The notes below the pieces were generated by a model. The model did not search any database. It was not told the origin of the DNA and saw only the letters and a list, made by a program, of their open reading frames with translations. 47,109 nt of DNA from Exiguobacterium sp. (GTDB lineage Bacteria; Bacillota; Bacilli; Exiguobacteriales; Exiguobacteriaceae): contig NZ_JAFIFD010000031.1 in NCBI RefSeq assembly GCF_020832205.1, positions 1-47,109 on the forward strand. The letters are read 5' to 3'. The stretch's first letter is position 1, and every line of letters starts with the position of its first letter. Positions 9,591-31,364 of the stretch are shown piece by piece. A program made the translations under genes and the position numbers.

Positions 9591-10388
9591 TTATTTCCCT
9601 TCTTCAATGAACGACTCGCGCACTCGTCTCCAAAACGGGAACGGGCGGAAACGGGCGAACGTCACTTTTTCTTTCGCGACCGCACAACGAATTGAGCGGA
9701 CGTTCGACCATGACAACGCTTCTTGGTGGTCAAACGCCAATTCAAACTCCGTTTTCGTGTGCGGCGCAATCTTCACTTGGTGGTGTTTTGGCAAGAGCAG
9801 CGGCGACCCGATCGTCCGATAGACGAGGTTGTTGATCGACGCCATCTCCGTCACTTGAATCGCCTCGATCGACGGATGGACGATGGCCCCGCCGAGCGCC
9901 TTGTTGTAAGCGGTCGACCCTGAAGGTGTCGAGATGCACAACCCGTCCCCCCGGAACGTCTCGAAATAGTCGTCTCGAATCGACAAATCGCAGACGAGCG
10001 TCCGCTTATAGTTTTTAATCGTGCACTCGTTCATGGCGAGCTGGCGTTCGGTCGTCCCGTCCTCATAATCGATGAGCACCTCGACGAGCGGGTACGAGAC
10101 CGGCTCGAACGATTCGCTCGTGATCATATCGGTCAGTTCATCGAGCTCGTCCGGTTGCCAGTCGGCATAAAAGCCGAGATGTCCCGTATGGATGCCGACG
10201 AGAAGCACATCTTCCAAGCGGTCGACGTATTCGTGGAACGCTTGCAACATCGTCCCGTCCCCGCCGACCGACACGACGATGCGCGGTTCGTTCGACACAG
10301 AATGTCCTGCTGCCGTCAACTTGTCCGTCAACTCACGCGCGATGTCAGCCGAACGCGCGTCTCCCCTTGCCACAATCGCAAACTGCAT
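9591..10388 (-). CDS. nadK: NAD kinase
   Basis: A 265-residue NAD kinase that makes NADP from NAD and ATP. Diagnostic motifs are GGDGTM (near residue 43), the NE motif in MNECTI and the glycine-rich GDGLCISTPSGSTAYNKALGG. The length matches the shorter Gram-positive enzymes (YjbN/PpnKA). It lies between relQ and a pseudouridine synthase gene in one operon. Start: ATG with a GGGGGC-type binding site upstream in the gap after relQ. Confidence 0.95.
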   Translation of the reverse strand: MQFAIVARGDARSADIARELTDKLTAAGHSVSNEPRIVVSVGGDGTMLQAFHEYVDRLEDVLLVGIHTGHLGFYADWQPDELDELTDMITSESFEPVSYPLVEVLIDYEDGTTERQLAMNECTIKNYKRTLVCDLSIRDDYFETFRGDGLCISTPSGSTAYNKALGGAIVHPSIEAIQVTEMASINNLVYRTIGSPLLLPKHHQVKIAPHTKTEFELAFDHQEALSWSNVRSIRCAVAKEKVTFARFRPFPFWRRVRESFIEEGK

Positions 10389-11819: not shown

Positions 11820-12593
11820 ATGGAACTTGAACAATGTAATGAGTCATCCTGTTCACTGGAAGAAACTGCTATCCAAGTCACATATAAACCATTAGAGCTA
11901 TTCTATTTCGTGGATATATCGGACCCGGATGGACTTCACGTGATGACACTCATTAAAAAGCTCGAGCTCGAATACGGTCATTTGATTCGTTTTCGGATGG
12001 TCTCGACAGTTCCAAGTTGTGTTGGCGGATGTCAAGAAGAGGTTCGCCTTCTCACGATGATCAAGGCTATGGAATTACAAGGGAAACGTCATGCGATGCG
12101 CTTTTTGCGTCACTTGCATATTAACGACATCTTTTTGAACAAAACGACGCACGACGCTGATTTATGGGAAATCGCTCGTTCGTTTTCCGGATATGGTCTC
12201 GACATCGATGAGCTGGCGGCTGACATTCAGTCCAACCAACTGTTAAGCGCCCTCGCCGTCGACCACCAGATTTTAAAAGACTGGGAAATCGAGACGTTGC
12301 CGGCGCTCACATTCGTCACACGTGACGAAGCGCTGAAAATCGAAGGCGTCTATCCTTACGACGTCTATCAAGCCGTCATGGCCGAACTGCTTGGCTACGT
12401 CCCGAATCGTGAAACCGATTGGAACGTTGAAAAAGTGCTCAGCCATTATGACGCCTCGACGATTACCGAACTTGCGTTCATTTTAGAACTCGAGAAGCCG
12501 GTCATCGAACGAGAACTGAAAAAGTTGTCGCTCCAGCAACGTTGCCGCCCCGTACCAGGGTGCAGCGGACAAGCGTGGGCGACGAAAAAGTAA
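11820..12593 (+). CDS. spxH: ClpXP adaptor protein SpxH (YjbH), DsbA-like fold
   Basis: A 257-residue YjbH/SpxH homologue, the adaptor that delivers Spx to ClpXP for degradation. The call rests on the PLELFYFVDISDP...LIKKLELEYG start, the following VSTVPSC...CQEEVRLL region, the helical middle with FLNKTTHDADLWEIARSFSGYGLD, and the location next to the pepF-coiA-mecA-spx block. The thioredoxin-like CPEC of B. subtilis YjbH is replaced by DPDG (Asp35-Gly38), and the metal-binding N-terminus is reduced to Cys6 and Cys11. Start: ATG 11820 with GAGAGGAGG 7 nt upstream. Unlike in B. subtilis it follows yjbK directly, without yjbI or yjbJ between them. Confidence 0.9.
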   Translation: MELEQCNESSCSLEETAIQVTYKPLELFYFVDISDPDGLHVMTLIKKLELEYGHLIRFRMVSTVPSCVGGCQEEVRLLTMIKAMELQGKRHAMRFLRHLHINDIFLNKTTHDADLWEIARSFSGYGLDIDELAADIQSNQLLSALAVDHQILKDWEIETLPALTFVTRDEALKIEGVYPYDVYQAVMAELLGYVPNRETDWNVEKVLSHYDASTITELAFILELEKPVIERELKKLSLQQRCRPVPGCSGQAWATKK

Positions 12594-12602
12594 GACGAAA
12601 CG

Positions 12603-12638
12603 AAAAAAAGCCCACGGCCGGGGAGCCGTGGGTTTTTT
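12603..12638. terminator. Bidirectional terminator for spxH (+) and roxS (-)
   Basis: CCCACGGC and GCCGTGGG pair around a CGGGGA loop, flanked by A7 on one side and T6 on the other, so it serves both strands. Confidence 0.88.
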
Positions 12639-12741
12639 GACGTCTCAAGCGGGGACAAGAGGCGTCGATCTCAACACCCGGGGAAGGTGTCGAGACGGGA
12701 GAAAGTTTACGGTCAATAAAGGGGTTTGTGATTGATTTCAC
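12603..12741 (-). ncRNA. roxS: RoxS/RsaE-type regulatory small RNA
   Basis: A free-standing transcription unit of about 140 nt without a good reading frame lies between spxH and pepF. It has a SigA promoter (12748-12776), an expected start near 12741 and the shared terminator. Its RNA carries several C-rich segments able to pair with ribosome binding sites: ACCCCTTTA (12717-12725), TTCTCCCGT (12695-12703), CTTCCCCGGG (12677-12687) and TTGTCCCCGC (12650-12659). These motifs, the 5' end TGTGAAATCAATCACA and the place beside spxH and pepF match my memory of B. subtilis RoxS and S. aureus RsaE, which tune central metabolism and redox genes under ResD/SrrA and Rex control. No search was run. Confidence 0.8.
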
Positions 12742-12743
12742 AC
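12726..12743 (-). promoter_or_regulatory. Rex-like (or Fnr-like) operator at the roxS start
   Basis: TTGTGATTGATTTCACAC is close to the Rex palindrome TTGTGAAATATTTCACAA and keeps TGTGA-N6-TCACA, also the Fnr pattern. It covers the predicted transcription start, a repressor position, which favours Rex. Confidence 0.65.
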
Positions 12744-12747
12744 TTAT

Positions 12748-12776
12748 AATATACCGAGCAACGCCTTCATTGACAA
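12748..12776 (-). promoter_or_regulatory. SigA promoter of roxS
   Basis: On the minus strand TTGTCA (12771-12776) and TATATT (12748-12753) are separated by 17 nt. Confidence 0.75.
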
Positions 12777-12780
12777 GCTG

Positions 12781-12808
12781 TTTGTTCACTTTGTCACATA
12801 ATGTTCAC
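12781..12808 (-). promoter_or_regulatory. Three tandem GTGAAC/GTGACA half-sites upstream of roxS (ResD-like)
   Basis: On the minus strand GTGAACA (12802-12808), GTGACAA (12791-12797) and GTGAACAAA (12781-12789) follow each other at 8-11 nt spacing just upstream of the -35. They resemble ResD/SrrA sites of the TTTGTGAAT type in opposite sense. The same stretch holds the inverted repeat CATAAT...ATTATG that may also help end pepF transcription. Confidence 0.45.
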
Positions 12809-12820
12809 GTAGCGTGACGA

Positions 12821-14623
12821 TTATGAGAACAGGAGCGCCTCCATCTCATCGAGGACAGATTCGAATTGATCCAACGCCGCTAGAACAGGGGCTTTTGTCG
12901 TCATATCGACTCCGGCCGCTTTCAACACTTCGATCGGATAATCGCTTGATCCCGCTTTCAAGAACTGATCGATATAACGGCGAACGGCCGGCTCTCCTTC
13001 TTCCATGATCTGCTGGGACAAGGCAGCTGAAGCCGAGATGCCCGTCGCGTACTGGTACACGTAATAGTTGTAGTAGAAGTGCGGAATGCGGGCCCACTCA
13101 TATGCGATTTCTTCGTCGATGACAATGTCGTCGCCGAAATAACGTTTGTTCAGTTCCAAATATGTCTCGTTCAAATATTCTGGCGTGAGCGAGACGCCAT
13201 CTTGGGCCGCCCGGTGAATCATATGCTCGAACTCGGCAAACATCGTTTGGCGGAACAAGGTGCCTCGGAACGTTTCAAGCTGATTGTTGAGAAGGTACAG
13301 GCGCTCGGCCTTGTCCGTACGCGTCTTCAACAAGTAATCGTTCAAGAGCGCCTCGTTCGTCGTCGAAGCGACTTCGGCCACGAAGATCGAGTAGTCTCCA
13401 TACGGATACGGTTGTGTCGCCCGTGTGTAATGGCTGTGCACGGAATGCCCGAACTCATGAGCGAGCGTGAACAAGTTGTTGACGTTGTCTTGCCAGTTCA
13501 TCAAGATGAACGGTTGCGTGTCATATGCGCCGGACGAGTAGGCGCCGCTACGCTTCCCTCGCGTTTCCCGGACGTCGACCCATCGCGAGTCGAGCCCATC
13601 CTTGACGATTTGAACGTACTCGTCACCGAGTGGGGCAAGCCCATCGACCATCAGCTGTTTCGCTTCTTCATATGAGATTTTCATCTCCACGTCTTTGACG
13701 AGCGGCGTATACAAGTCGTACATATGCAACGCGTCGACTCCGAGCGCCCGTTTCCGGAGCGCGACGTAACGGTGCAACAGGTCGAGCCGTTCATTCACCG
13801 CTTCGACGAGACCGTCGTATACCGATTCGGGGATCGAATTGTGATGGAGTGCCGCTTGACGGGCATTTTCAAATTTCCGGACCGTCGCGTAGAAGTTATC
13901 TTTTTTCACACTTCCCGACAGCGTCGAGGCGAACGTGTTCAAATAGTCTTTATACGTGCCGTACATCGCCTTGAACGCCGTCTCCCGCACATCGCGGTCG
14001 CTCGACTCCAAAAATGTGATGTAGCGGCCGTGTGTCAGTTCGACGTCTTCCCCTGCCTCGTTCTTCACTTTCGGGAATTTCAAATCGGCGTTGTTGAGCA
14101 TGCCGAACGTCGAGCTCGATTGTCCGAGCACGTCTCCCGCTTGAGCGAGCAGCGCTTCTTCAGCTTCTGTCAAGACGTGTGGGCGCTCTTGGGCCAACTC
14201 ATCGAACGCGTGCCGATAGACGCGGAGGTCATCGTGTTCGTTCATGAACGCCTCGATTTGGCTTTCCTCGATGGCGAGCAGTTCTGGCGTCATGAAAGCG
14301 AGTTGCGCCGAAATTTGGGCCGCCAGCGTCCCCGCGCGATCGTTCAACGCTTGGTAATGGCTGTTCGCCGTATCCTCGTCGTAACGCATGTGGGCGTATG
14401 TATAAAGTTTATGCAGTTGCCGCGAGAGGTCGTCTCGCAGGCTGAGCGCGGCGTAGAGCGTGTCGGCCGATTCTCCGAGCTTCCCTTTGTACTCCATGAG
14501 AGCCGGTACGTTCGCTTTGAGCGCTTCAAAATCCTGTTCCCAAGCTTGATCGTCGGCATAGATCGTCTCTAAGCTCCACGTCTCCTCGACGGGCACTTGT
14601 TGTCGTGTAAGTACTTCTGACAT
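12821..14623 (-). CDS. pepF: Oligoendopeptidase F (M3B family)
   Basis: A 600-residue cytoplasmic zinc metallopeptidase that cleaves short peptides. The active-site helix is LAHEFGHSVHSH (HExxH form), with downstream Glu-rich segments and the PHFYYNYYVYQYATG signature of M3B enzymes. The length is usual for PepF. I place the start at ATG 14623 because AAAGGAAGTGG precedes it and the family N-terminus is MSEVLxRQxVP; a longer frame to 14737 would overlap coiA and has no binding site. It is downstream of coiA, as in B. subtilis. Confidence 0.95.
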   Translation of the reverse strand: MSEVLTRQQVPVEETWSLETIYADDQAWEQDFEALKANVPALMEYKGKLGESADTLYAALSLRDDLSRQLHKLYTYAHMRYDEDTANSHYQALNDRAGTLAAQISAQLAFMTPELLAIEESQIEAFMNEHDDLRVYRHAFDELAQERPHVLTEAEEALLAQAGDVLGQSSSTFGMLNNADLKFPKVKNEAGEDVELTHGRYITFLESSDRDVRETAFKAMYGTYKDYLNTFASTLSGSVKKDNFYATVRKFENARQAALHHNSIPESVYDGLVEAVNERLDLLHRYVALRKRALGVDALHMYDLYTPLVKDVEMKISYEEAKQLMVDGLAPLGDEYVQIVKDGLDSRWVDVRETRGKRSGAYSSGAYDTQPFILMNWQDNVNNLFTLAHEFGHSVHSHYTRATQPYPYGDYSIFVAEVASTTNEALLNDYLLKTRTDKAERLYLLNNQLETFRGTLFRQTMFAEFEHMIHRAAQDGVSLTPEYLNETYLELNKRYFGDDIVIDEEIAYEWARIPHFYYNYYVYQYATGISASAALSQQIMEEGEPAVRRYIDQFLKAGSSDYPIEVLKAAGVDMTTKAPVLAALDQFESVLDEMEALLFS

Positions 14624-21738: not shown

Positions 21739-22689
21739 TTAAACGAGCTGAGCTTTATAAGCCTCATATTCTTCATCTGTCAACGAGACGAAATGACCTG
21801 GCTCGACTTCACGGAGCGGCGGGATGCTTGAATCTTCATCCGAACGTCCGACGGCACCGAGTGACTTCGACTCATAGACGATCCGTTTACGGGTCCGCTC
21901 ATGCTCTGGATCCGGAAGCGGGATCGCCGACAAGAGCGACTTCGTGTAAGCGTGAATCGGGTTATCGTACAGGAGTTCCGCCGGAGCAAGCTCGACGAGG
22001 TGACCTTGATACATAACGCCGATTCGGTCCGAGATATACTTGACCATCGACAAGTCGTGGGCGATGAACAAGTAAGTGAGATCACGGTCGCGTTGCAGTT
22101 CTTTCATCAAGTTGACGACCTGTGCTTGAATCGACACGTCAAGTGCCGAAATCGGCTCATCGGCGATGATGAAGTCCGGTTCGACCGCGAGAGCACGGGC
22201 AATCCCGATCCGTTGACGCTGTCCGCCCGAGAACTCGTGCGGGTAACGGCTCGCGTGTTCTTTCGTGAGACCGACCGTCTCGAGAAGATCATAGACACGG
22301 TTCATCCGGTCTTCATTCGTCTTCGCGAGACCGTGGATATCGATTCCTTCCGCGATGATATCAGCGACCGTCATCCGCGGGTTAAGCGACGCGTATGGGT
22401 CTTGGAAGATCATTTGCATCGCGCGGTTGAACTTCAACTTCTCCGCTTTCGACTTCTTATCGTGAACGTTCTCGCCTTTGAAGATGACGTCTCCGTCTGT
22501 CGCATCGTAAAGTCCGATGATCGTGCGTCCAGTTGTCGATTTTCCACAACCAGATTCTCCGACGAGACCGAGTACTTCTCCTTTGTAAATATCAAACGAG
22601 ATGCCGTCGACCGCTTTGACGACACGGCCTCGACCAATTTTAAAGTGCTGCTTCAGGTCTCGTACTTCTAATAATTTCTCACGTTCCAT
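21739..22689 (-). CDS. oppF: Oligopeptide ABC transporter ATP-binding protein OppF
   Basis: A 316-residue ATPase subunit. Walker A is GESGCGKST, the signature is FSGGQRQRIGIARAL, Walker B is IIADEP, followed by the switch His in AHD. The C-terminal extension (IPLPDPEHERTRKR onward) is the OppF/DppF type. It couples ATP hydrolysis to peptide import through OppBC together with OppD. Its start codon overlaps the oppD stop by one base, so the two are coupled. It is the last gene of the operon. Confidence 0.96.
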   Translation of the reverse strand: MEREKLLEVRDLKQHFKIGRGRVVKAVDGISFDIYKGEVLGLVGESGCGKSTTGRTIIGLYDATDGDVIFKGENVHDKKSKAEKLKFNRAMQMIFQDPYASLNPRMTVADIIAEGIDIHGLAKTNEDRMNRVYDLLETVGLTKEHASRYPHEFSGGQRQRIGIARALAVEPDFIIADEPISALDVSIQAQVVNLMKELQRDRDLTYLFIAHDLSMVKYISDRIGVMYQGHLVELAPAELLYDNPIHAYTKSLLSAIPLPDPEHERTRKRIVYESKSLGAVGRSDEDSSIPPLREVEPGHFVSLTDEEYEAYKAQLV

Positions 22690-23762
22690 TATTCAGCACC
22701 ACCTTTCACTAGCGATTTCGCGAACGCGCTGTCTGGACGATATTTGAGCGCCAAGTCGATGATCGCTTGTGGCGGCGTCACTTGCGGTGCTTGCGGGTGC
22801 AACAACCATGTCGCCGCGTAGTGCGTGTCGCTAATTTGGAACATCGGTGGCTCTTTCTCAAAATCAATCTTCATCGCGTACGGGTTACGCGGTGCGAACG
22901 CATCGCCTGTCGGCGGGTTCAACAAGTTAGGAGGCGTACCCGGGATGGCCGGGAGCGCTTCGTTCGGATCATCCGTCGGACGCGGCATCGAGCCGAGCAG
23001 TCCCCATGCGTATGGGTGACGTGGCTCGTAGAAGATCTCATCGACCGTTCCTTTTTCGACGATTTTACCGGCATACATAACAGCGACACGGTCAGCCATG
23101 TTCGCGACGACACCGAGGTCGTGCGTGATGAAGATGATGGCTGTACCTGTCTTTTGTTGAATATCTTTCAACAATTCTAAAATTTGCGCTTGAATCGTTA
23201 CGTCGAGCGCTGTCGTCGGCTCATCAGCAATCAACACTTTCGGGTTACATGCGAGCGCGATCGCGATAACGATCCGTTGACGCATCCCACCTGACAATTG
23301 GTGCGGATATTGCTTCAGACGAGCTTCCGGGTTCGGGATGCCGACGAGCGTGAGCAATTCGAGCGCACGCTTCTTCGCATCTTCCCCTGTAAGCCCTTGG
23401 TGCTGTTTCAATCCTTCGGCGATTTGCTTATAGATCGTCATCGTCGGGTTGAGCGACGTCATCGGATCTTGGAAAATCATCGCGATGTCGCGACCGCGGA
23501 TTTTGAGCATTTCTTTTTCCGAAAGTTTGGCCAAGTCTTTTCCTTCGAACAAGATTTCTCCGTTCGTGATCTCACCTGGCGGGTTCGGGATGAGACGCAT
23601 GATCGCTTTCGACGTGACGGATTTACCAGAACCCGATTCACCTACGATTGCGAGCGTCTCGCCTTTTTTCAAATCAAACGATACGTTGCGAACGGCTTGT
23701 ACCGTACCAGCGTACGTATGGAACGAGACCGCTAAGTCTCGGACAGATAAAATCGTTTCCAT
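22689..23762 (-). CDS. oppD: Oligopeptide ABC transporter ATP-binding protein OppD
   Basis: A 357-residue ATPase subunit, partner of OppF. Walker A is GESGSGKSV, the signature LSGGMRQRIVIAIAL, Walker B LIADEP, then THDLGVVA. The C-terminal oligopeptide-transporter extension (HPYAWGLLGSMPR) is present; the four-cysteine iron-sulfur type ending of some DppD proteins is not. It lies 23 nt after oppC. Confidence 0.96.
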   Translation of the reverse strand: METILSVRDLAVSFHTYAGTVQAVRNVSFDLKKGETLAIVGESGSGKSVTSKAIMRLIPNPPGEITNGEILFEGKDLAKLSEKEMLKIRGRDIAMIFQDPMTSLNPTMTIYKQIAEGLKQHQGLTGEDAKKRALELLTLVGIPNPEARLKQYPHQLSGGMRQRIVIAIALACNPKVLIADEPTTALDVTIQAQILELLKDIQQKTGTAIIFITHDLGVVANMADRVAVMYAGKIVEKGTVDEIFYEPRHPYAWGLLGSMPRPTDDPNEALPAIPGTPPNLLNPPTGDAFAPRNPYAMKIDFEKEPPMFQISDTHYAATWLLHPQAPQVTPPQAIIDLALKYRPDSAFAKSLVKGGAE

Positions 23763-23785
23763 GCACGAGTCCCCCTCTTTCTAAG

Positions 23786-24811
23786 TTATTTACGCATTTT
23801 CGGGTCGAACGCATCACGCAAGCCGTCGGCAAGCAAGTTGAAGCTGACCATGAGCAAGACGATGATCGTCGATGGGATGACGAGGAGGTACGGGAACGTC
23901 CGTAGCTCTTTATATCCGTCATTGATCAACGTACCGAGTGACGCTTGTGGCGGTTGAAGTCCGATCCCGATGAAGCTGAGGAACGCCTCGAAGAAGATGG
24001 CAGATGGAATCGTGAACATGAGTGTGATGATGATGGCGCCGAGCGTGTTCGGGATCAAGTGTTTGAAGATCAAACGATTGCTTGAAGCACCGAGCGTGCG
24101 GGCAGCCAAAACGAACTCTTGGTTTTTTAGTTTCAAGATCTGCCCGCGGACGAGTCGACTCATCCCGATCCAACCGGTGATGGTCATCGCCAAGATGATG
24201 GTGAAGACCCCTGGGTCAAAGATCAAAATGAACAAGATGATCAAAATCAAGTTTGGTACACCTGTCAAAATCTCTACGAACCGTTGCATGATGTTATCGA
24301 CGCGGCCACCGAAGTAAGCCGAAATTCCGCCGTACGCCACACCGATGACCGTATCGATGATCGCGGCGACGAGACCGATAAAGAGCGAGATGCGTGTCCC
24401 TTCCCAAATCCGTGACCAAAGATCACGGCCGAGGTAGTCGGTCCCGAACCAGTAGTTCTCTTCGACGTTCTTTTGTTCATAGAAGTTGATATCACGGCCA
24501 CCGAGGTTAGCCATGCCGTCAAATCCGGCCCATTCAAGTCCTGTGACTTTTGGCGGAAGTTTCGCTTGCGCGATGTTTTGTGTATACGCGTCGCGTCCTG
24601 ACAGCATCGGTCCGAAGAGCGCGAGTGCGACGAGAATTAAAATGACCGATAGCGAAATGATGGCTGCTTTGTTTTTCTTTAAGCGCATCCATGCATCTTG
24701 CCAGAAGTTTAAACTTTTTCCTGCGATCCGTTCAGCGAGCTGTTCGTTCATTTCGACCGGTTGGAACATGTCTTGGTCGAACTGCTCGTATTTTTTTTTA
24801 TTTTCAATCAT
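23786..24811 (-). CDS. oppC: Oligopeptide ABC transporter permease OppC
   Basis: A 341-residue inner-membrane permease with a long cytoplasmic N-terminus (about 1-45), six membrane spans and the EAA loop (EFVLAARTLGASSNRLIFKH) that contacts the ATPases. A periplasm-like outer loop with NYWFGTDYLGRDLWSR is typical of OppC/DppC. Its ATG shares one base with the oppB stop (TGATG), indicating translational coupling. Confidence 0.95.
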   Translation of the reverse strand: MIENKKKYEQFDQDMFQPVEMNEQLAERIAGKSLNFWQDAWMRLKKNKAAIISLSVILILVALALFGPMLSGRDAYTQNIAQAKLPPKVTGLEWAGFDGMANLGGRDINFYEQKNVEENYWFGTDYLGRDLWSRIWEGTRISLFIGLVAAIIDTVIGVAYGGISAYFGGRVDNIMQRFVEILTGVPNLILIILFILIFDPGVFTIILAMTITGWIGMSRLVRGQILKLKNQEFVLAARTLGASSNRLIFKHLIPNTLGAIIITLMFTIPSAIFFEAFLSFIGIGLQPPQASLGTLINDGYKELRTFPYLLVIPSTIIVLLMVSFNLLADGLRDAFDPKMRK

Positions 24812-25737
24812 CAGTTATCCCCCCCAAGACGAATACGTGGGTCAACGACTCCGTAGAGCAAATCGACGAGTAAAATGATCAAGATGAAGAGCGCCGAGAA
24901 GAACAGGGTCGTACCCATGATGACCGAATAGTCATTCAACGTAATCGACGTAACGAACAATTCACCAAGTCCTGGCACGGCAAAGATTTTCTCGATAACG
25001 AACGTCCCTGTCAATAAGGCAGCTGTCATCGGGCCAAGAATCGTGATGGCCGGAATGATGGCGTTACGCACCATGTGTTTCCACACGATGGCATTCCCCG
25101 TCAGCCCTTTCGCCTTGGCGAGCGTGACGTAATCTTGACCGGTGACTTCTAGCATCTCAGTCCGGACGAAACGGGCAATCGAAGCCGTAACCCCGAGCGA
25201 GAGCGAGATGGTCGGTAAGATCGTGTGCGCCGGAGAATCCCAGAACGCAACAGGCAATACGCCCCACTTTACGCCCACATAGTACTGAAGGAGGGCCGCA
25301 AAGACGAACGATGGGACGGAAATCCCGATAACAGAGACGAACATTGAACCATAATCGATGAACGTGTTATGACGAATTGCCGCCACGATTCCGAGCAATA
25401 GTCCTACGAACGTACCGAGTATCAACGCTTGAGCACCTAACTGGGCCGATGGACCGATTCGTTCCATAATCAATTCCGTCACTGGACGGTTAGCCGTACG
25501 GAATGAAATGCCGAGGTCACCTTGTAACAGGTTCCCCATGTAAGTCGCATAACGAACCGGAAGTGGATCGTTGAGTCCGTAACGATCGTTCAAGATTTGA
25601 ATTTGCGTATCCGTCAATTTCTCCTGGTTTTGGTACGGCGAACCCGGTAACAGGTCCATCAGGAAAAATGTGAACGTCGCAATCAAGAAGAACGTGATGA
25701 GGCCGTAAGTCAGCCGTTGCAAAAGATAACGTCCCAT
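24811..25737 (-). CDS. oppB: Oligopeptide ABC transporter permease OppB
   Basis: A 308-residue inner-membrane permease with six spans. The N-terminal MGRYLLQRLTYGLITFF is typical of OppB/DppB, and the EAA loop reads DYVTLAKAKGLTGNAIVWKH. It pairs with OppC. It has its own possible promoter in the 300-bp gap after oppA, with GGGGG about 9 nt before its ATG. Confidence 0.95.
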   Translation of the reverse strand: MGRYLLQRLTYGLITFFLIATFTFFLMDLLPGSPYQNQEKLTDTQIQILNDRYGLNDPLPVRYATYMGNLLQGDLGISFRTANRPVTELIMERIGPSAQLGAQALILGTFVGLLLGIVAAIRHNTFIDYGSMFVSVIGISVPSFVFAALLQYYVGVKWGVLPVAFWDSPAHTILPTISLSLGVTASIARFVRTEMLEVTGQDYVTLAKAKGLTGNAIVWKHMVRNAIIPAITILGPMTAALLTGTFVIEKIFAVPGLGELFVTSITLNDYSVIMGTTLFFSALFILIILLVDLLYGVVDPRIRLGGDN

Positions 25738-26003
25738 AAATAAAAACCCCCTGTTTTTCTAAATATATCTATGCTTGCACCAACAGCGTCACTATGACAT
25801 ATTTCCCTATTCTTGAATTCACAAAATGAAAGGAATTTTCTGAAAGAATAGGTCAAACGTCATCTCAAGGCTCTTAGTACAGCACATGAAAATCGCAAAG
25901 TACTCACTTTATGAAGTATTCTGAATTTTCACTGTTACTACATTATACTTTACCAACAAAACATTTGAATAGTGTTTTCTCTTATTTCTAATTTTTTTTT
26001 AGA
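25738..26003 (-). promoter_or_regulatory. oppA-oppB intergenic region with internal promoter
   Basis: The 302-bp gap holds the oppA terminator, then on the minus strand a possible promoter (TTCAAA at 25964-25969, 16 nt, TATAAT at 25942-25947). A CodY-like stretch AATTTTCTGAAAGAA begins near 25831 and matches 12 of 15 consensus bases. A terminator plus a promoter would allow more OppA than OppBCDF, as binding proteins are usually in excess. I see no reading frame here. Confidence 0.5.
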
Positions 26004-26034
26004 AAACGGGGGACATGCTGTCGCATGCCCCCGC
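26004..26034 (-). terminator. Hairpin terminator (attenuator) after oppA
   Basis: CGGGGGCATGC and GCATGTCCCCCG pair with one bulged base around GACA and are followed by TTTTCT. It ends or reduces transcription before oppB. Confidence 0.8.
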
Positions 26035-26039
26035 GCTCT

Positions 26040-27656
26040 TTAGTTGATGTCGACGTATTTGTACTGGTAGTCAGCACCGAATAGTTGACGGTTGAAGTTT
26101 TCGACGTTTGGACGAATCAAGTAAGCGACACCTGCTTGATAGATCGGCATGATCGCTTGGTCTTGTTCGATCAACAATTGTTCAGCTTCTTTAAACTTGT
26201 CATAACGGGCATCAATTGCCGTCTCAGCTGACGCTTCGTCGATGAGACGATCGTAATCGGCCGAGCTGTAGTTGATGTCGTTTTGACCGTTGTTCGATGT
26301 GAAGATCCCAAGGTTTGTGAGCGGATCTTGATAGTCAGGACCCCAAAGGGCGAATGAAATCTGGTAGTCCCCGCTCGCTTCACGCTCGAGTTTATTGTTA
26401 AACGGTTGTTGAGCGATGTTGACCGTCACGTTCGGCAAGTTTGCCTCGATTTGGCCTTTCATGTACTCAGAGATTTGTTTCGATACTTCAGAGTCGAATG
26501 AGAGAAGTTCGATTGTGAGCGCTTCGCCGCCCGTCGCTTCTTCCCAAAGCGTCGCCGCTTCGTCTGCGTTCGTCTCAAAGTATTGAAGACCTTCTGTGTA
26601 ATCCGTTCCGTCTTCATATTTGATGAAGTCTTTCGGGATGAAAGATGTCGTTGCAATCGAACCGTTGTTCAAAAGTTGGTCGATGATCCCAGACGGGTCG
26701 ACCGCGCGTGCGACCGCTTTACGGGCGTTCACGTCAGCGAACACTTCATCTTCGTGGTTGAACTTGAAGTATCCGACGGCTGAACGGAGACCTGTGTTGA
26801 AGTCTTCGCTGTCTTGGAAGGCAGCGACTTGCTCTGAAGCGAGGCCGGCGTAGTCGACTTCACCAGCTTCGAACAAGTTGACGACTGTCGATGTCTCTTT
26901 GACGACACGAACATCGACTTTGTCGAGAGCGACGTTGTCTTTGTCCCAATACGTGTCGTTTTTCGTCAAAACGTAGCCTTGCTCACGATCCCATTGCGAC
27001 CATGTGAACGGTCCGTTGTAAAGAAGGTTGTCGACGTTCGTCGCGAAGTCTGAACCTTTTTCAGTTGCAAACGCTTCGTTGACCGGTGTGAACGTACCGA
27101 ACGACGTGAGTGAGAGGAACGATGGGTCTGGACGCTCAAGTGTGACTTCGAGTGTCTTCTCATCGATAGCTTTCACCCCGAGCTCTTCTTTTGGAACGTC
27201 GCCCGCGTTGATCGCGTCCGCGTTTTTGAGCGTGCTCATGATGTAAGCGTATTGTGAACCTGTTTCAGGGTCGACGGCGCGTTGCCATGCGTAGACGAAG
27301 TCGTTCGCTGTGACCGGTTCTCCGTTTGACCACTCGGCGTCACGAAGTGTGAACGTGTAGACGGTCTCGTCTTCGTTCAATTCCGGCTCGCCTTCTGCCA
27401 TCGCTGGTACGGCTTGACCGTCTTTATCGAGGCGGTAAAGTCCCTCCATCGTGTTCGCAATCAAGTTGAATGCGACCGCGTCTGTTGCAAGTGCCGGGTC
27501 GGCTGTCGTAATGTCAGACGTATCTGTCAAGCGGAGTACTTTTTCTCCGTTCGAAGATGAACCGCCGTCAGAGTCTCCGCCAGTCGAACAAGCGGCGAGT
27601 ACTGAACCGAGCGCTAAGATGAGTGTCATCATTAGCAAGATCGATTTTTTCTTCAT
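26040..27656 (-). CDS. oppA: Oligopeptide-binding lipoprotein OppA
   Basis: A 538-residue family-5 extracellular solute-binding protein. A lipoprotein signal ends in VLAAC (Cys22), followed by a Ser/Gly/Asp linker and the mature domain with family motifs (ADPALATDAVAFNLIANTMEGL near 55, NEDETVYTFTLRDAEWSNGEPVTANDF near 95). It captures peptides outside the membrane and hands them to OppBC. It is first in oppABCDF, with a good promoter and a CodY-like box upstream, pointing to repression in rich medium. Confidence 0.95.
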   Translation of the reverse strand: MKKKSILLMMTLILALGSVLAACSTGGDSDGGSSSNGEKVLRLTDTSDITTADPALATDAVAFNLIANTMEGLYRLDKDGQAVPAMAEGEPELNEDETVYTFTLRDAEWSNGEPVTANDFVYAWQRAVDPETGSQYAYIMSTLKNADAINAGDVPKEELGVKAIDEKTLEVTLERPDPSFLSLTSFGTFTPVNEAFATEKGSDFATNVDNLLYNGPFTWSQWDREQGYVLTKNDTYWDKDNVALDKVDVRVVKETSTVVNLFEAGEVDYAGLASEQVAAFQDSEDFNTGLRSAVGYFKFNHEDEVFADVNARKAVARAVDPSGIIDQLLNNGSIATTSFIPKDFIKYEDGTDYTEGLQYFETNADEAATLWEEATGGEALTIELLSFDSEVSKQISEYMKGQIEANLPNVTVNIAQQPFNNKLEREASGDYQISFALWGPDYQDPLTNLGIFTSNNGQNDINYSSADYDRLIDEASAETAIDARYDKFKEAEQLLIEQDQAIMPIYQAGVAYLIRPNVENFNRQLFGADYQYKYVDIN

Positions 27657-27726
27657 AGTGATATCCCCTTTCTGAAACTATATTGCTTGGCGCATCGTCG
27701 GAACGTAACATCTTACTTTTTTCTTT

Positions 27727-27741
27727 AATTTTCTGAATATT
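27727..27741 (-). promoter_or_regulatory. CodY-like box upstream of oppA
   Basis: AATTTTCTGAATATT matches the CodY consensus AATTTTCWGAAAATT at 14 of 15 positions. It lies about 30-40 nt downstream of the predicted transcription start, where bound CodY would block elongation. Confidence 0.7.
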
Positions 27742-27774
27742 TCATAAAGTATCCGACGAAAGAACGTTAGGGCT

Positions 27775-27804
27775 ATTGTAAAAAATTTTTAATCAAACTG
27801 TCAA
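27775..27804 (-). promoter_or_regulatory. SigA promoter of oppA
   Basis: On the minus strand TTGACA (27799-27804) and TACAAT (27775-27780) are separated by 18 nt. Confidence 0.75.
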
Positions 27805-27929
27805 CTAGTTGATAAACCGCTCTCATTTTTCAAACTTCTCTCTCGCCAGAACGATAGAACTACTAGTATCATAGAGCCATGAAGGATGGGAGCCGATTTA
27901 AGTCATCCGGTTGAAAGGAGTTTGACACA

Positions 27930-28298
27930 TTGAAAAATTTTAGAGCGATATTAATCGTTTTAGGGATTGTCACAATTACATACACGATTTGGTCGTATGC
28001 ATCGTACTATCGGCCGGAAACGTTTTTATTCCATGTGAGCGGTGGACTGTTCGTCGGCGGGATGATCGTCTTCGCGATCGGCATGTTCTCACAAATGAGC
28101 GCATCCGGTCTATTCGACGGCATCATGTACGGCTTCAAGCGGAATCGACGAGCGAAATTGAAAGAAATCGATCCGGACTATGAAGAAGACGAAGATGCGA
28201 CACCGGAGGAACGGACCGAACGGAAACAAAACGCTCGGCGTTGGATTTATATCGGCATCGTGAGTATTCTCGTCTCGTTCGCCCTCTCGTTCGTTTGA
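27930..28298 (+). CDS. DUF3899-like small membrane protein
   Basis: A 122-residue membrane protein with spans at about 5-25, 35-55 and 103-121. Between the second and third span is a charged cytoplasmic loop (GFKRNRRAKLKEIDPDYEEDEDATPEERTERKQ). This layout, with hydrophobic ends and a charged centre, matches DUF3899 proteins as I remember them; the function is unknown. The start is TTG at 27930, supported by GAAAGGAG about 10 nt upstream. It lies between the divergent oppA and the trpS leader. Confidence 0.7.
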   Translation: MKNFRAILIVLGIVTITYTIWSYASYYRPETFLFHVSGGLFVGGMIVFAIGMFSQMSASGLFDGIMYGFKRNRRAKLKEIDPDYEEDEDATPEERTERKQNARRWIYIGIVSILVSFALSFV

Positions 28299-28344
28299 CC
28301 TTCCCGTTTTTTCGTCCGTATGCTAAACTGAAATGAGAATAAAA

Positions 28345-29606
<1,262 letters not shown>

Positions 29607-29613
29607 ACTGCCG

Positions 29614-29645
29614 CACCGCTCTTTCATTCGAGCGGTGTTTTTTTA
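29614..29645 (+). terminator. Terminator of trpS
   Basis: CACCGCTC and GAGCGGTG pair around TTTCATTC and are followed by seven T. Confidence 0.88.
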
Positions 29646-29650
29646 CGCAC

Positions 29651-29680
29651 AAAAAAGAGAGACAGGCGTCCCTGTCTCTC
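29651..29680 (-). terminator. Terminator of the second oppA-like gene
   Basis: GAGAGACAGG and CCTGTCTCTC form a perfect 10-bp stem around a 4-nt loop, followed by TTTTTT on the minus strand. Confidence 0.9.
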
Positions 29681-29696
29681 TCAGTGATGTGTAATC

Positions 29697-31364
29697 TTAT
29701 TCTTTACCTTCGATGAATGCCCACTTGTACGAGTAGTCAGCGCCGAACGCGTGTTCAACGATGTCTTTCACGTATGGCTTCGTGAGGCGAGCCGATCCCC
29801 GTTGGTAAACTGGTGAGATTGCGCTCTCTTCAAGAACGATTTTCTCTGCTGCTGCGAGGTCAGCCCAACGCTGTTCAGCATCTGTGCTTGTTTTCGCCGA
29901 TTCGATGAGTGCATCGAACTCTTCGTTCGACCACTTACCACGGTTGTATGGTCCGTCAGTGACGAAGAGGTCAACGAATGTCATTGGATCCTGGTAGTCA
30001 GGTCCCCAACCAGCGAATGACATTTCGAAATCGCCAGCGCTTTCGAGTTCAAGTTTGTTGTTGAACGGTTGTTGCTTGATTGTGACAGTCATACCTTCGA
30101 GGTTCTTCTCGAGTTCACCTTTGATGAACTCACCGATTTGCTTCGCAGTCTCTGAGTCGTAGTTCAAGAACTCAAGTTCAACTGTGTCTGTACCGAGTTC
30201 TTCAAGTCCAGCTTCCCAAAGTTGCTTCGCTTCTTCTGGGTCGTAGCCGCCGATGTCTCCGTTGATGTCACGGAAGTCGTTGCCGTCAGGACCTGTTACG
30301 AAGTCTTTCGGTACGAGGTAGTTCGCAGGGATCGATCCGTTCGCGAGGAGCGTCTCTGAGATTGCTGCTTTATCGTAAGCGCGGTCGATCGCGTTACGGA
30401 TGTTTTGGTTGTCAAGCGCTTCTACAGCTGAGTTGAATTGGAGGTAGAAGAGTGTAGGTTCGACGACAGTTGAGAAGTCTTCGCTGTCTTGGAACTGGGC
30501 AACGAGCTCAGAAGTCAAGCCAGTGCGGTCAACGTCACCGTTCTCGTACAAGTTAACGCCCGTTTGGACTTCTTTTACGACGCGGAAGTTGATCTCGTCA
30601 AGTTTGACTGATTCTGCATCCCAATACTCTTCGTTTTTAACCATTTTCCAGCCTTGTTCGCGCTCCCAGTTTTCGAGTTTGAACGGTCCGTTGTAAAGAG
30701 TTGTCTCTGCAGACGTCCCGAGGTTCTCGCCTTGCTCTTGGTCGAATGACTCAAGTTTAGGCATAAATACGCCGAAGCTTGTGAGACCGAGGAAGTAATC
30801 AGCTGGTGCTTTCAATTTAACTTCAAGTGTTTGCTCATCGACAGCTGTGACGCCGACTGCATCGCGCTCGCCATCGCCTGTATTATATTCATCAGCACCT
30901 TCGATTGGTGACATGACGTATGCATATTGTGAACCGTTATCCGGGTTCAATACTTCTTTCCAACCGTATTCGAAGTCGTTAGCCGTTACAGGCTCTCCGT
31001 TTGACCAAGTAGCGCCTTCACGGATTTTGAACGTGTAAGTCAAGCCGTCTTCAGATACTTCGTGTGATTCGGCCATACCAGGTGTTGGGTTGTCTTCTTC
31101 GTCCATGCGATAAAGACCTTCCATAACGTTGTTCAATACGTTGAACGATACTGAGTCAGTAGCGAGCGTCGGGTTAAGTGAAGGAATATCTGAACCTTCG
31201 AGCAAGTTGAGGACTTGCGCTTCATCCGGCGTACCTTCTGAACCAGATCCGTTTGAACCTGTTTCGTTGTTAGTCGTGTCGTCCCCACCCGAGCAAGCTG
31301 CTAGAAACGCACTCGAGATGAGCGTGACTGACGTTGCTAAAGCAAAACCTTTTTTCTTATTCAT
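29697..31364 (-). CDS. Second oligopeptide-binding lipoprotein (OppA paralogue)
   Basis: A 555-residue family-5 binding protein. The lipoprotein signal ends FLAAC (Cys24), followed by a Gly/Ser/Asp linker. The mature part is clearly related to the OppA at 26040-27656 throughout (for example TLATDSVSFNVLNNVMEGLYRMD and YNGPFKLENWEREQGW), so it arose by duplication. It has no permease genes and is flanked by terminators, so it probably feeds OppBCDF with a different peptide range (inference). Its promoter carries a CodY-like box in the spacer. Confidence 0.93.
   Translation of the reverse strand: MNKKKGFALATSVTLISSAFLAACSGGDDTTNNETGSNGSGSEGTPDEAQVLNLLEGSDIPSLNPTLATDSVSFNVLNNVMEGLYRMDEEDNPTPGMAESHEVSEDGLTYTFKIREGATWSNGEPVTANDFEYGWKEVLNPDNGSQYAYVMSPIEGADEYNTGDGERDAVGVTAVDEQTLEVKLKAPADYFLGLTSFGVFMPKLESFDQEQGENLGTSAETTLYNGPFKLENWEREQGWKMVKNEEYWDAESVKLDEINFRVVKEVQTGVNLYENGDVDRTGLTSELVAQFQDSEDFSTVVEPTLFYLQFNSAVEALDNQNIRNAIDRAYDKAAISETLLANGSIPANYLVPKDFVTGPDGNDFRDINGDIGGYDPEEAKQLWEAGLEELGTDTVELEFLNYDSETAKQIGEFIKGELEKNLEGMTVTIKQQPFNNKLELESAGDFEMSFAGWGPDYQDPMTFVDLFVTDGPYNRGKWSNEEFDALIESAKTSTDAEQRWADLAAAEKIVLEESAISPVYQRGSARLTKPYVKDIVEHAFGADYSYKWAFIEGKE

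Follow-up and report, generated by a model that had tools for sequence, protein, structure and literature searches.

A divergent RoxS/RsaE-like small RNA with a changed predicted fold between spxH and pepF in Exiguobacterium

The gap between the genes for SpxH and oligoendopeptidase F in Exiguobacterium contains what is very probably a divergent orthologue of the small RNA called RoxS in Bacillus subtilis and RsaE in Staphylococcus. In Bacillus and Staphylococcus, RoxS/RsaE lowers TCA-cycle activity in response to shifts in redox balance. The Exiguobacterium element is a RoxS/RsaE homologue by descent, yet it stands outside the family RF01820 as curated and its predicted fold has changed. It likely acts through Rex- and ResD-controlled turn-down of TCA-cycle and related enzymes by way of G-rich ribosome-binding sites. 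We analyzed the element in a stretch of 47,109 nucleotides from an Exiguobacterium sp. contig (referred to here as the window) and in related genomes. An initial annotation of the same DNA had read the gap as a RoxS/RsaE gene with Rex-like and ResD-like control, and this was mostly right, although the changed fold and the signature on the target side were overlooked.

The spxH/pepF gap holds a complete RNA gene with a promoter, a start near position 12741, and a terminator (Table 1). Its position is the one originally proposed, but the strand needs correcting: the RNA is encoded on the minus strand. Its 5′ end was placed from the promoter and by homology, and its 3′ end from the terminator. 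Two promoter-like sites were found between positions 12400 and 13000, where 0.4 would be expected, and one of them is the 17-nt-spaced TTGTCA/TATATT pair on the minus strand that had been noted before; two terminator-like sites were found against 0.9 expected. The transcript, originally described as a C-rich RNA of about 140 nt with a shared terminator, comes to 138 nt and has a folding z-score of −6.0, with equal stability reached in 0 of 200 shuffles. The terminator stem is near-symmetric and could therefore act for spxH, on the opposite strand, as well.

TABLE 1 Features of the RoxS/RsaE-like locus, with positions in the window
Feature	Position	Strand	Details
spxH (thioredoxin-fold SpxH/YjbH), convergent neighbor	11820..12593	+	PF13743, 73.2 bits
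RoxS/RsaE-like small RNA	12604..12741	-	138 nt; RF01820, 28.4 bits; alignment A2; model R1, 156.6 bits (self-match)
Terminator stem	12611..12632	-	UCCCC in loop; followed by T run; near-symmetric; 99.5% of cells paired
Hairpin 3	12639..12666	-	5 pairs with changes on both sides; alignment A2
Hairpin 2	12668..12696	-	5 pairs with changes on both sides; alignment A2
C-rich region 2, UUUCUCCC	12697..12704	-	predicted unpaired
C-rich region 1, CCCCUUU	12718..12724	-	predicted unpaired
Rex-like operator, GTGTGAAATCAATCACAA	12726..12743	-	over start site; also predicted 5′ hairpin of the RNA
Promoter-like TTGTCA, 17-nt spacer, TATATT	12748..12776	-	TATATTATAA kept across genus sequences
ResD-like half-sites GTGAAC, TGTGAC, GTGAAC	12784..12808	-	at about -67, -57, -48
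pepF (oligoendopeptidase F), upstream neighbor	12821..14623	-	same strand as RNA; TIGR00181, 691.8 bits (cutoff, 490.55)

We considered whether only the terminator region and the promoter elements are conserved here, the transcript itself being functionless read-through or a 3′ tail of pepF or spxH. A near-symmetric terminator that could serve spxH is compatible with this account, and the scores for RF01820, RNAI, and Thr_leader derive in part from the terminator. However, 18 of the 19 genus members in alignment A2 share one and the same sequence over the first 45 nt of the RNA, the remaining genome departs from it by a single change, no reading frame through this part keeps its end, and RoxS-like motifs persist in all 19 sister-genus genomes despite differing terminators; read-through is scarcely credible in light of these observations. 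Matches to RNAI, Thr_leader, and other Rfam families overlap the terminator hairpin far under their gathering scores and were discarded. A protein-coding reading was likewise rejected. No frame keeps its end across the 19 relatives, ATG is absent from 10 of the 19 same-genus RNAs, and a 95-amino-acid frame is open in 5 of the 19 genomes. Two other frames run without a stop through the whole stretch examined, one in 10 of the 19 and the other in 12, but the starts GTG at nucleotide 1 and TTG at nucleotide 26 run to stops at differing places.

The homology to RoxS/RsaE claimed in the initial annotation is supported by genomic place, by reciprocal model search, by alignable 5′ sequence, and by the kept Rex-like and ResD-like sequences. 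Comparison with the Rfam RsaE model had been suggested as a check, and its outcome was mixed: a match spanning the full model exists, but its 28.4 bits (E = 0.0081 in the 401-base stretch searched) lie under the gathering score of 79, which is reached by none of the 38 genomes of the family. This locus is the sole match in its own genome at E ≤ 10. At the best 30 of the 58 canonical RF01820 loci over the cutoff, PepF is a neighbor in 30 and SpxH in 26; from these matches we take the gene at 11820..12593, whose product matched no NCBIfam profile, to be spxH. The initial annotation had treated the absence of yjbI as notable, which is beside the point because the canonical RNAs also sit between pepF and spxH. 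The stretch GTGAAATCAATCACAAA-CCCCTTTATTGACCGTAAACTTTCTCCC can be aligned to canonical RoxS in the order GUGAAAU..AAUCACAAA, a gap of about 8 missing nucleotides, CCCCUUU, UUGACCGU, and UUUCUCCC.

For the reciprocal search, a covariance model (R1) was built solely from the 19 same-genus sequences that make up alignment A2. The search with R1 covered 299 genomes drawn from the class, with a match threshold of E ≤ 0.01, and RF01820 was applied to the same genomes at E ≤ 0.001, both with strict filters. R1 matched 49 of the 299 genomes, 14 in the same genus and 35 outside it, and 30 of the 35 outside matches coincide with the RF01820 place. RF01820 finds 78 non-family genomes in this set, so that R1 recovers 30 and misses 48. 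When applied directly to the canonical loci, R1 matched all 30 at E ≤ 0.02 (E ≤ 0.017). R1 matched no sister-genus genome at E ≤ 0.01 among the 299, and only 5 of the 19 sister-genus loci at E ≤ 1 (E = 0.0005 to 0.16). An R1 match in genome G296, with neither pepF nor spxH beside it by eye, was counted as a miss, as were matches in four genomes of family f7 that mark a different, C/U-rich element. This conserved f7 element (1241-1348 in locus L154, 1421-1539 in L156, and in two more genomes) carries a terminator-like hairpin and in L154 and L156 lies upstream of a gene that by eye is amidase-like; neither of these two loci matched Rfam at gathering score, and the element may represent a small RNA or leader that has not been described before.

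Within the family, the RoxS/RsaE-like element is present at this place in all 38 genomes, comprising 19 of the same genus (our own included) and 19 of a sister genus. BLASTN matched the gap in every one of the 19 same-genus genomes, again with our own included, and gave no match better than E = 0.028 in the sister genus. There, spxH was located in all 19 genomes, and the adjoining element starts GTGAAG-N4-TCACA-NTCCCC in every one. At E ≤ 1, RF01820 matched 23 of the 38 family genomes. In 20 of these (the 19 same-genus genomes and G033) the match falls on this locus; the matches in G021, G027, and G029 lie elsewhere and were set aside. In an exact-pattern scan of named genomes, 24 of 26 matching records were Exiguobacterium, and the other two, from Verrucomicrobiaceae, were treated as chance. 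A literature search reaching few subscription journals found no paper joining RsaE/RoxS with Exiguobacterium, and the main text of a paper on predicted Exiguobacterium small RNA numbers names neither (PMC10837837).

The sequences upstream of the RNA suggest the same two regulators as in B. subtilis, where Rex repression and ResD activation of roxS have been reported (PMC5419742, PMC4409812). The palindrome over the start site reads TGTGA-N6-TCACA, and GTGAA-N5-TCACA lies on the start point in all 38 family genomes, 19 from each of the two genera. Its description as Rex-like is based on this conservation and on position, because its consensus score by itself is not above chance: a Rex-box scan allowing up to two mismatches found 19 places, hardly above the 15 found with a reversed control pattern. 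The palindrome also fits the Fnr-type consensus, and together with its departure from the Rex consensus at two positions this would accord with a site for an Fnr/Crp-type regulator in place of Rex. We regard that alternative as quite unlikely, given that the B. subtilis roxS promoter has a Rex site at the same place and is bound by Rex in gel shift (PMC5419742), and that our genome encodes Rex (one match, 356.8 bits; cutoff, 177) and has Rex boxes elsewhere, namely a perfect one ahead of an adhE-like gene and two-mismatch sites ahead of ldh (two) and rex.

Further upstream, the three GTGAAC-type half-sites of the initial annotation were found as GTGAAC and TGTGAC sequences. All 19 same-genus genomes have TGTGA at −57, compared to 7% in shuffled sequence. 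The 19 sister-genus genomes all have it at −56 or −57, and 28 of 30 canonical loci have it within −95 to −46 (shuffled, 6 to 10% overall). Rex-like and ResD-like sequences are both kept in 38 of 38 family genomes. A resABCDE-like cluster is present in our genome, with ResB recognized by Pfam, the response regulator and kinase by domains, and the rest by order. None of the 25 NCBIfam matches listed for each of the regulator and the kinase reached its cutoff, and the candidate ResD is assigned from gene order and domains. Judged from these sequences, Rex and ResD would bind at the promoter and the RNA would be expressed.

The RNA of the window's genus consists of a conserved 5′ part followed by three hairpins, and in the genome studied here three loops contain UCCCC. 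The loop of hairpin 2 is UUCCCC in 12 of 19 genomes and C-free in 7, whereas the hairpin 3 loop, GUCCCCGC, is invariant in 19 of 19. In alignment A2, 90.0% of cells are paired, compared to 81.8% in shuffles; 12 pairs show double changes, compared to 8.1 in shuffles and 1 to 5 in slid structures; and covariation is 0.311, compared to 0.162 in shuffles. Further pair types showed no excess in A2 (26 versus 26.2 shuffled), and slid structures score lower on every A2 measure. Paired changes in the alignment thus support the two added hairpins (2 and 3) in the window's genus.

The predicted fold of the 5′ end has also changed. Within the first 48 nt, a GUGA/UCAC hairpin is predicted at −3.3 kcal/mol in the window's genus compared to +0.6 kcal/mol for a RoxS-like stem, and the long canonical 5′ stem that holds C-rich region 1 in its loop is not predicted there. 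For the sister-genus RNA, the prediction is a longer 5′ stem that carries the C-rich loop. As the 5′ end in the window's genus is predicted to fold only on itself, at the Rex palindrome, motifs 1 and 2 would be open in the full-length RNA. RoxS of B. subtilis loses about 20 nt from its 5′ end to RNase Y, a step reported as required for good sucCD binding in vitro (PMC4409812), and trimmed RsaE of Staphylococcus epidermidis is described as behaving like trimmed B. subtilis RoxS in binding sucC (PMC6435200). By the predicted structure, we infer that the RNA of the window's genus may be open without trimming.

Taken feature by feature, the RNA of the window shares with B. subtilis RoxS (RF01820) its pepF/spxH place, a GUGAA..UCACA 5′ end on a Rex-like site, a ResD-like sequence near −57, CCCCUUU, UUUCUCCC, and the terminator, and its candidate targets likewise include TCA-cycle genes. 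It differs from RoxS in lacking about 8 nt of the 5′ loop and a predicted long 5′ stem, in having two hairpins that replace the CCCAUCCCCUUUGUU block, in its length of 138 nt compared to 96 to 122 in the 30 canonical loci read, and in scoring below the Rfam threshold. RsaE of Staphylococcus belongs to the same family and shares the unpaired C-rich motifs, which, along with control by SrrAB (ResDE) and Rex, have been reported or proposed (PMC6435200, PMC5826253). The differences from RsaE are those from RoxS, and the form in the window's genus is predicted open at full length, whereas in S. epidermidis and B. subtilis it is the loss of some 20 nt at the 5′ end that permits binding to sucC.

To look for candidate targets, we used 379 gene starts chosen by script from 20 stretches of 20 kb of our genome and from the window. 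The word GGGGG occurs in the ribosome-binding zone of 43 of the 379, including genes for OdhA, OdhB, SdhC, GcvPA, GcvPB, and RocD (by family), and for EtfB and EtfA, whose best matches are electron-transfer-flavoprotein-type families below curated cutoffs; GcvT joins this set once its start is corrected by hand. For B. subtilis, the literature describes these genes as decreased by RoxS, as belonging to the RoxS regulon, or as part of a target operon (PMC10433868, PMC8216469). GGGGG is present at 10 of 10 recognized orthologues of published RoxS targets (sucC included) compared to 35 of 370 other genes (Fisher p = 2e-10), or at 6 of 6 with one gene per operon (p = 1e-6). Both p values are on the optimistic side: the targets were compiled only once GGGGG had been noticed, making the test partly post hoc, and genes lacking the word were identified by eye from 40 residues, so that an unrecognized orthologue without GGGGG could be among them. 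Left out of the target set, and all counted among the 370, were an LcfA-like ligase (a paralogue of the target LcfB, without GGGGG), malic enzyme (without GGGGG), nitroreductases (two with GGGGG and one without), and the NAD kinase PpnKA (a paralogue of PpnKB, with GGGGG); ytsJ and yodC, the B. subtilis relatives of malic enzyme and the nitroreductases, are reported to go up (PMC10433868).

Pairing with motif 1 was stronger in the target set than in the rest (p = 1.6e-5; first cistrons only, p = 0.0011), whereas anti-Shine-Dalgarno pairing, used as a control, did not differ between them (p = 0.47). At sucC, duplex energy ranks 45, 68, 78, and 29 of 380 for four RNA segments, and by itself was rejected as proof of targeting, not being decisive. 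All 22 sucC leaders read in Exiguobacterium (22 of 38 genomes with sucC) carry GGGGG, as do all 30 read for etfA and etfB (of 38 genomes). The word is absent from sucC in the 15 Bacilli examined outside Exiguobacterium. A second G-rich box, UAAAGGGG, lies upstream of the sucC ribosome-binding site in 22 of 22 read from both genera (L186, L187, L188, L195-L197, L200, L204, L207, L209, L210, L212, and 10 sister-genus loci). The idea that this box coevolved with motif 1 was rejected: the sister genus retains the box, although its motif 1 reads CCCCAG or CCCCUGA in most cases and does not match the flank of the box.

We also observed GGGGG at other ribosome-binding sites in the window. A NAD kinase gene of PpnKA type (9591-10388), about 2.2 kb from the RNA, has the word there; among the entries considered from a B. 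subtilis RoxS table, the lowest ratio belongs to NAD kinase 2 (PpnKB) (PMC10433868). On the minus strand at 21739-29697 and beyond, an oligopeptide-transport-like cluster, named by eye, has GGGGG ribosome-binding sites at the genes with low ends 22689, 23786, 24811, and 29697, and the B. subtilis RoxS list includes the peptide transporter genes dppD, dppE, and ykfD (PMC10433868). A T-box leader (128 bits) lies at 28344-28552.

The GGGGG sites could instead reflect another C-rich small RNA, such as a counterpart of FsrA, or a bias connected with expression. FsrA probably differs from the RoxS-like RNA in place and sequence. It is, in B. subtilis, also a small RNA with C-rich regions and TCA-cycle mRNA targets such as sdhC (PMC8216469), and the frequency of GGGGG among the sampled genes as a whole would suit either source. 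However, rocD, gcvT-PA-PB, odhAB, sdhC, and sucC have been reported to be lowered by RoxS (PMC10433868), and the anti-Shine-Dalgarno pairing of the target set does not differ from that of the rest, which together make an FsrA counterpart or expression bias a somewhat unlikely explanation.

Under the preferred RoxS/RsaE reading, the RNA would be transcribed from a SigA-type promoter, with Rex on the start site repressing while NADH is low and ResD assisting under low oxygen or nitric oxide. The 138-nt RNA would expose several CCCC motifs that could pair with the G-rich ribosome-binding sites of mRNAs for the TCA cycle, electron-transfer flavoprotein, glycine cleavage, and ornithine degradation, and translation of these mRNAs would be lowered when NADH accumulates. 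The extra hairpins with C-rich loops would occupy the place of the second CCCAUCCCCUUUGUU block of canonical RoxS. We infer both the pairing with targets and its physiological effect. More tentatively, and with the balance leaning against it, the RNA and its regulon may have been rewired together: the 5′ stem would have been lost in the window's genus, leaving the RNA always open, C-motifs would have moved onto new loops, and target sites would have become GGGGG. If target ribosome-binding sites did shift to GGGGG across Exiguobacterium in this way, the regulon could be read from that word alone.

These results extend the Rex/ResD-RoxS redox node to a family missed by the Rfam threshold. The two sister genera offer a natural comparison, as the canonical 5′ stem is predicted in one and not in the other while the candidate targets are the same; gating of target choice by the stem, through RNase Y, is therefore testable. 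Such a comparison could show how a small RNA with a large regulon changes its pairing motifs.
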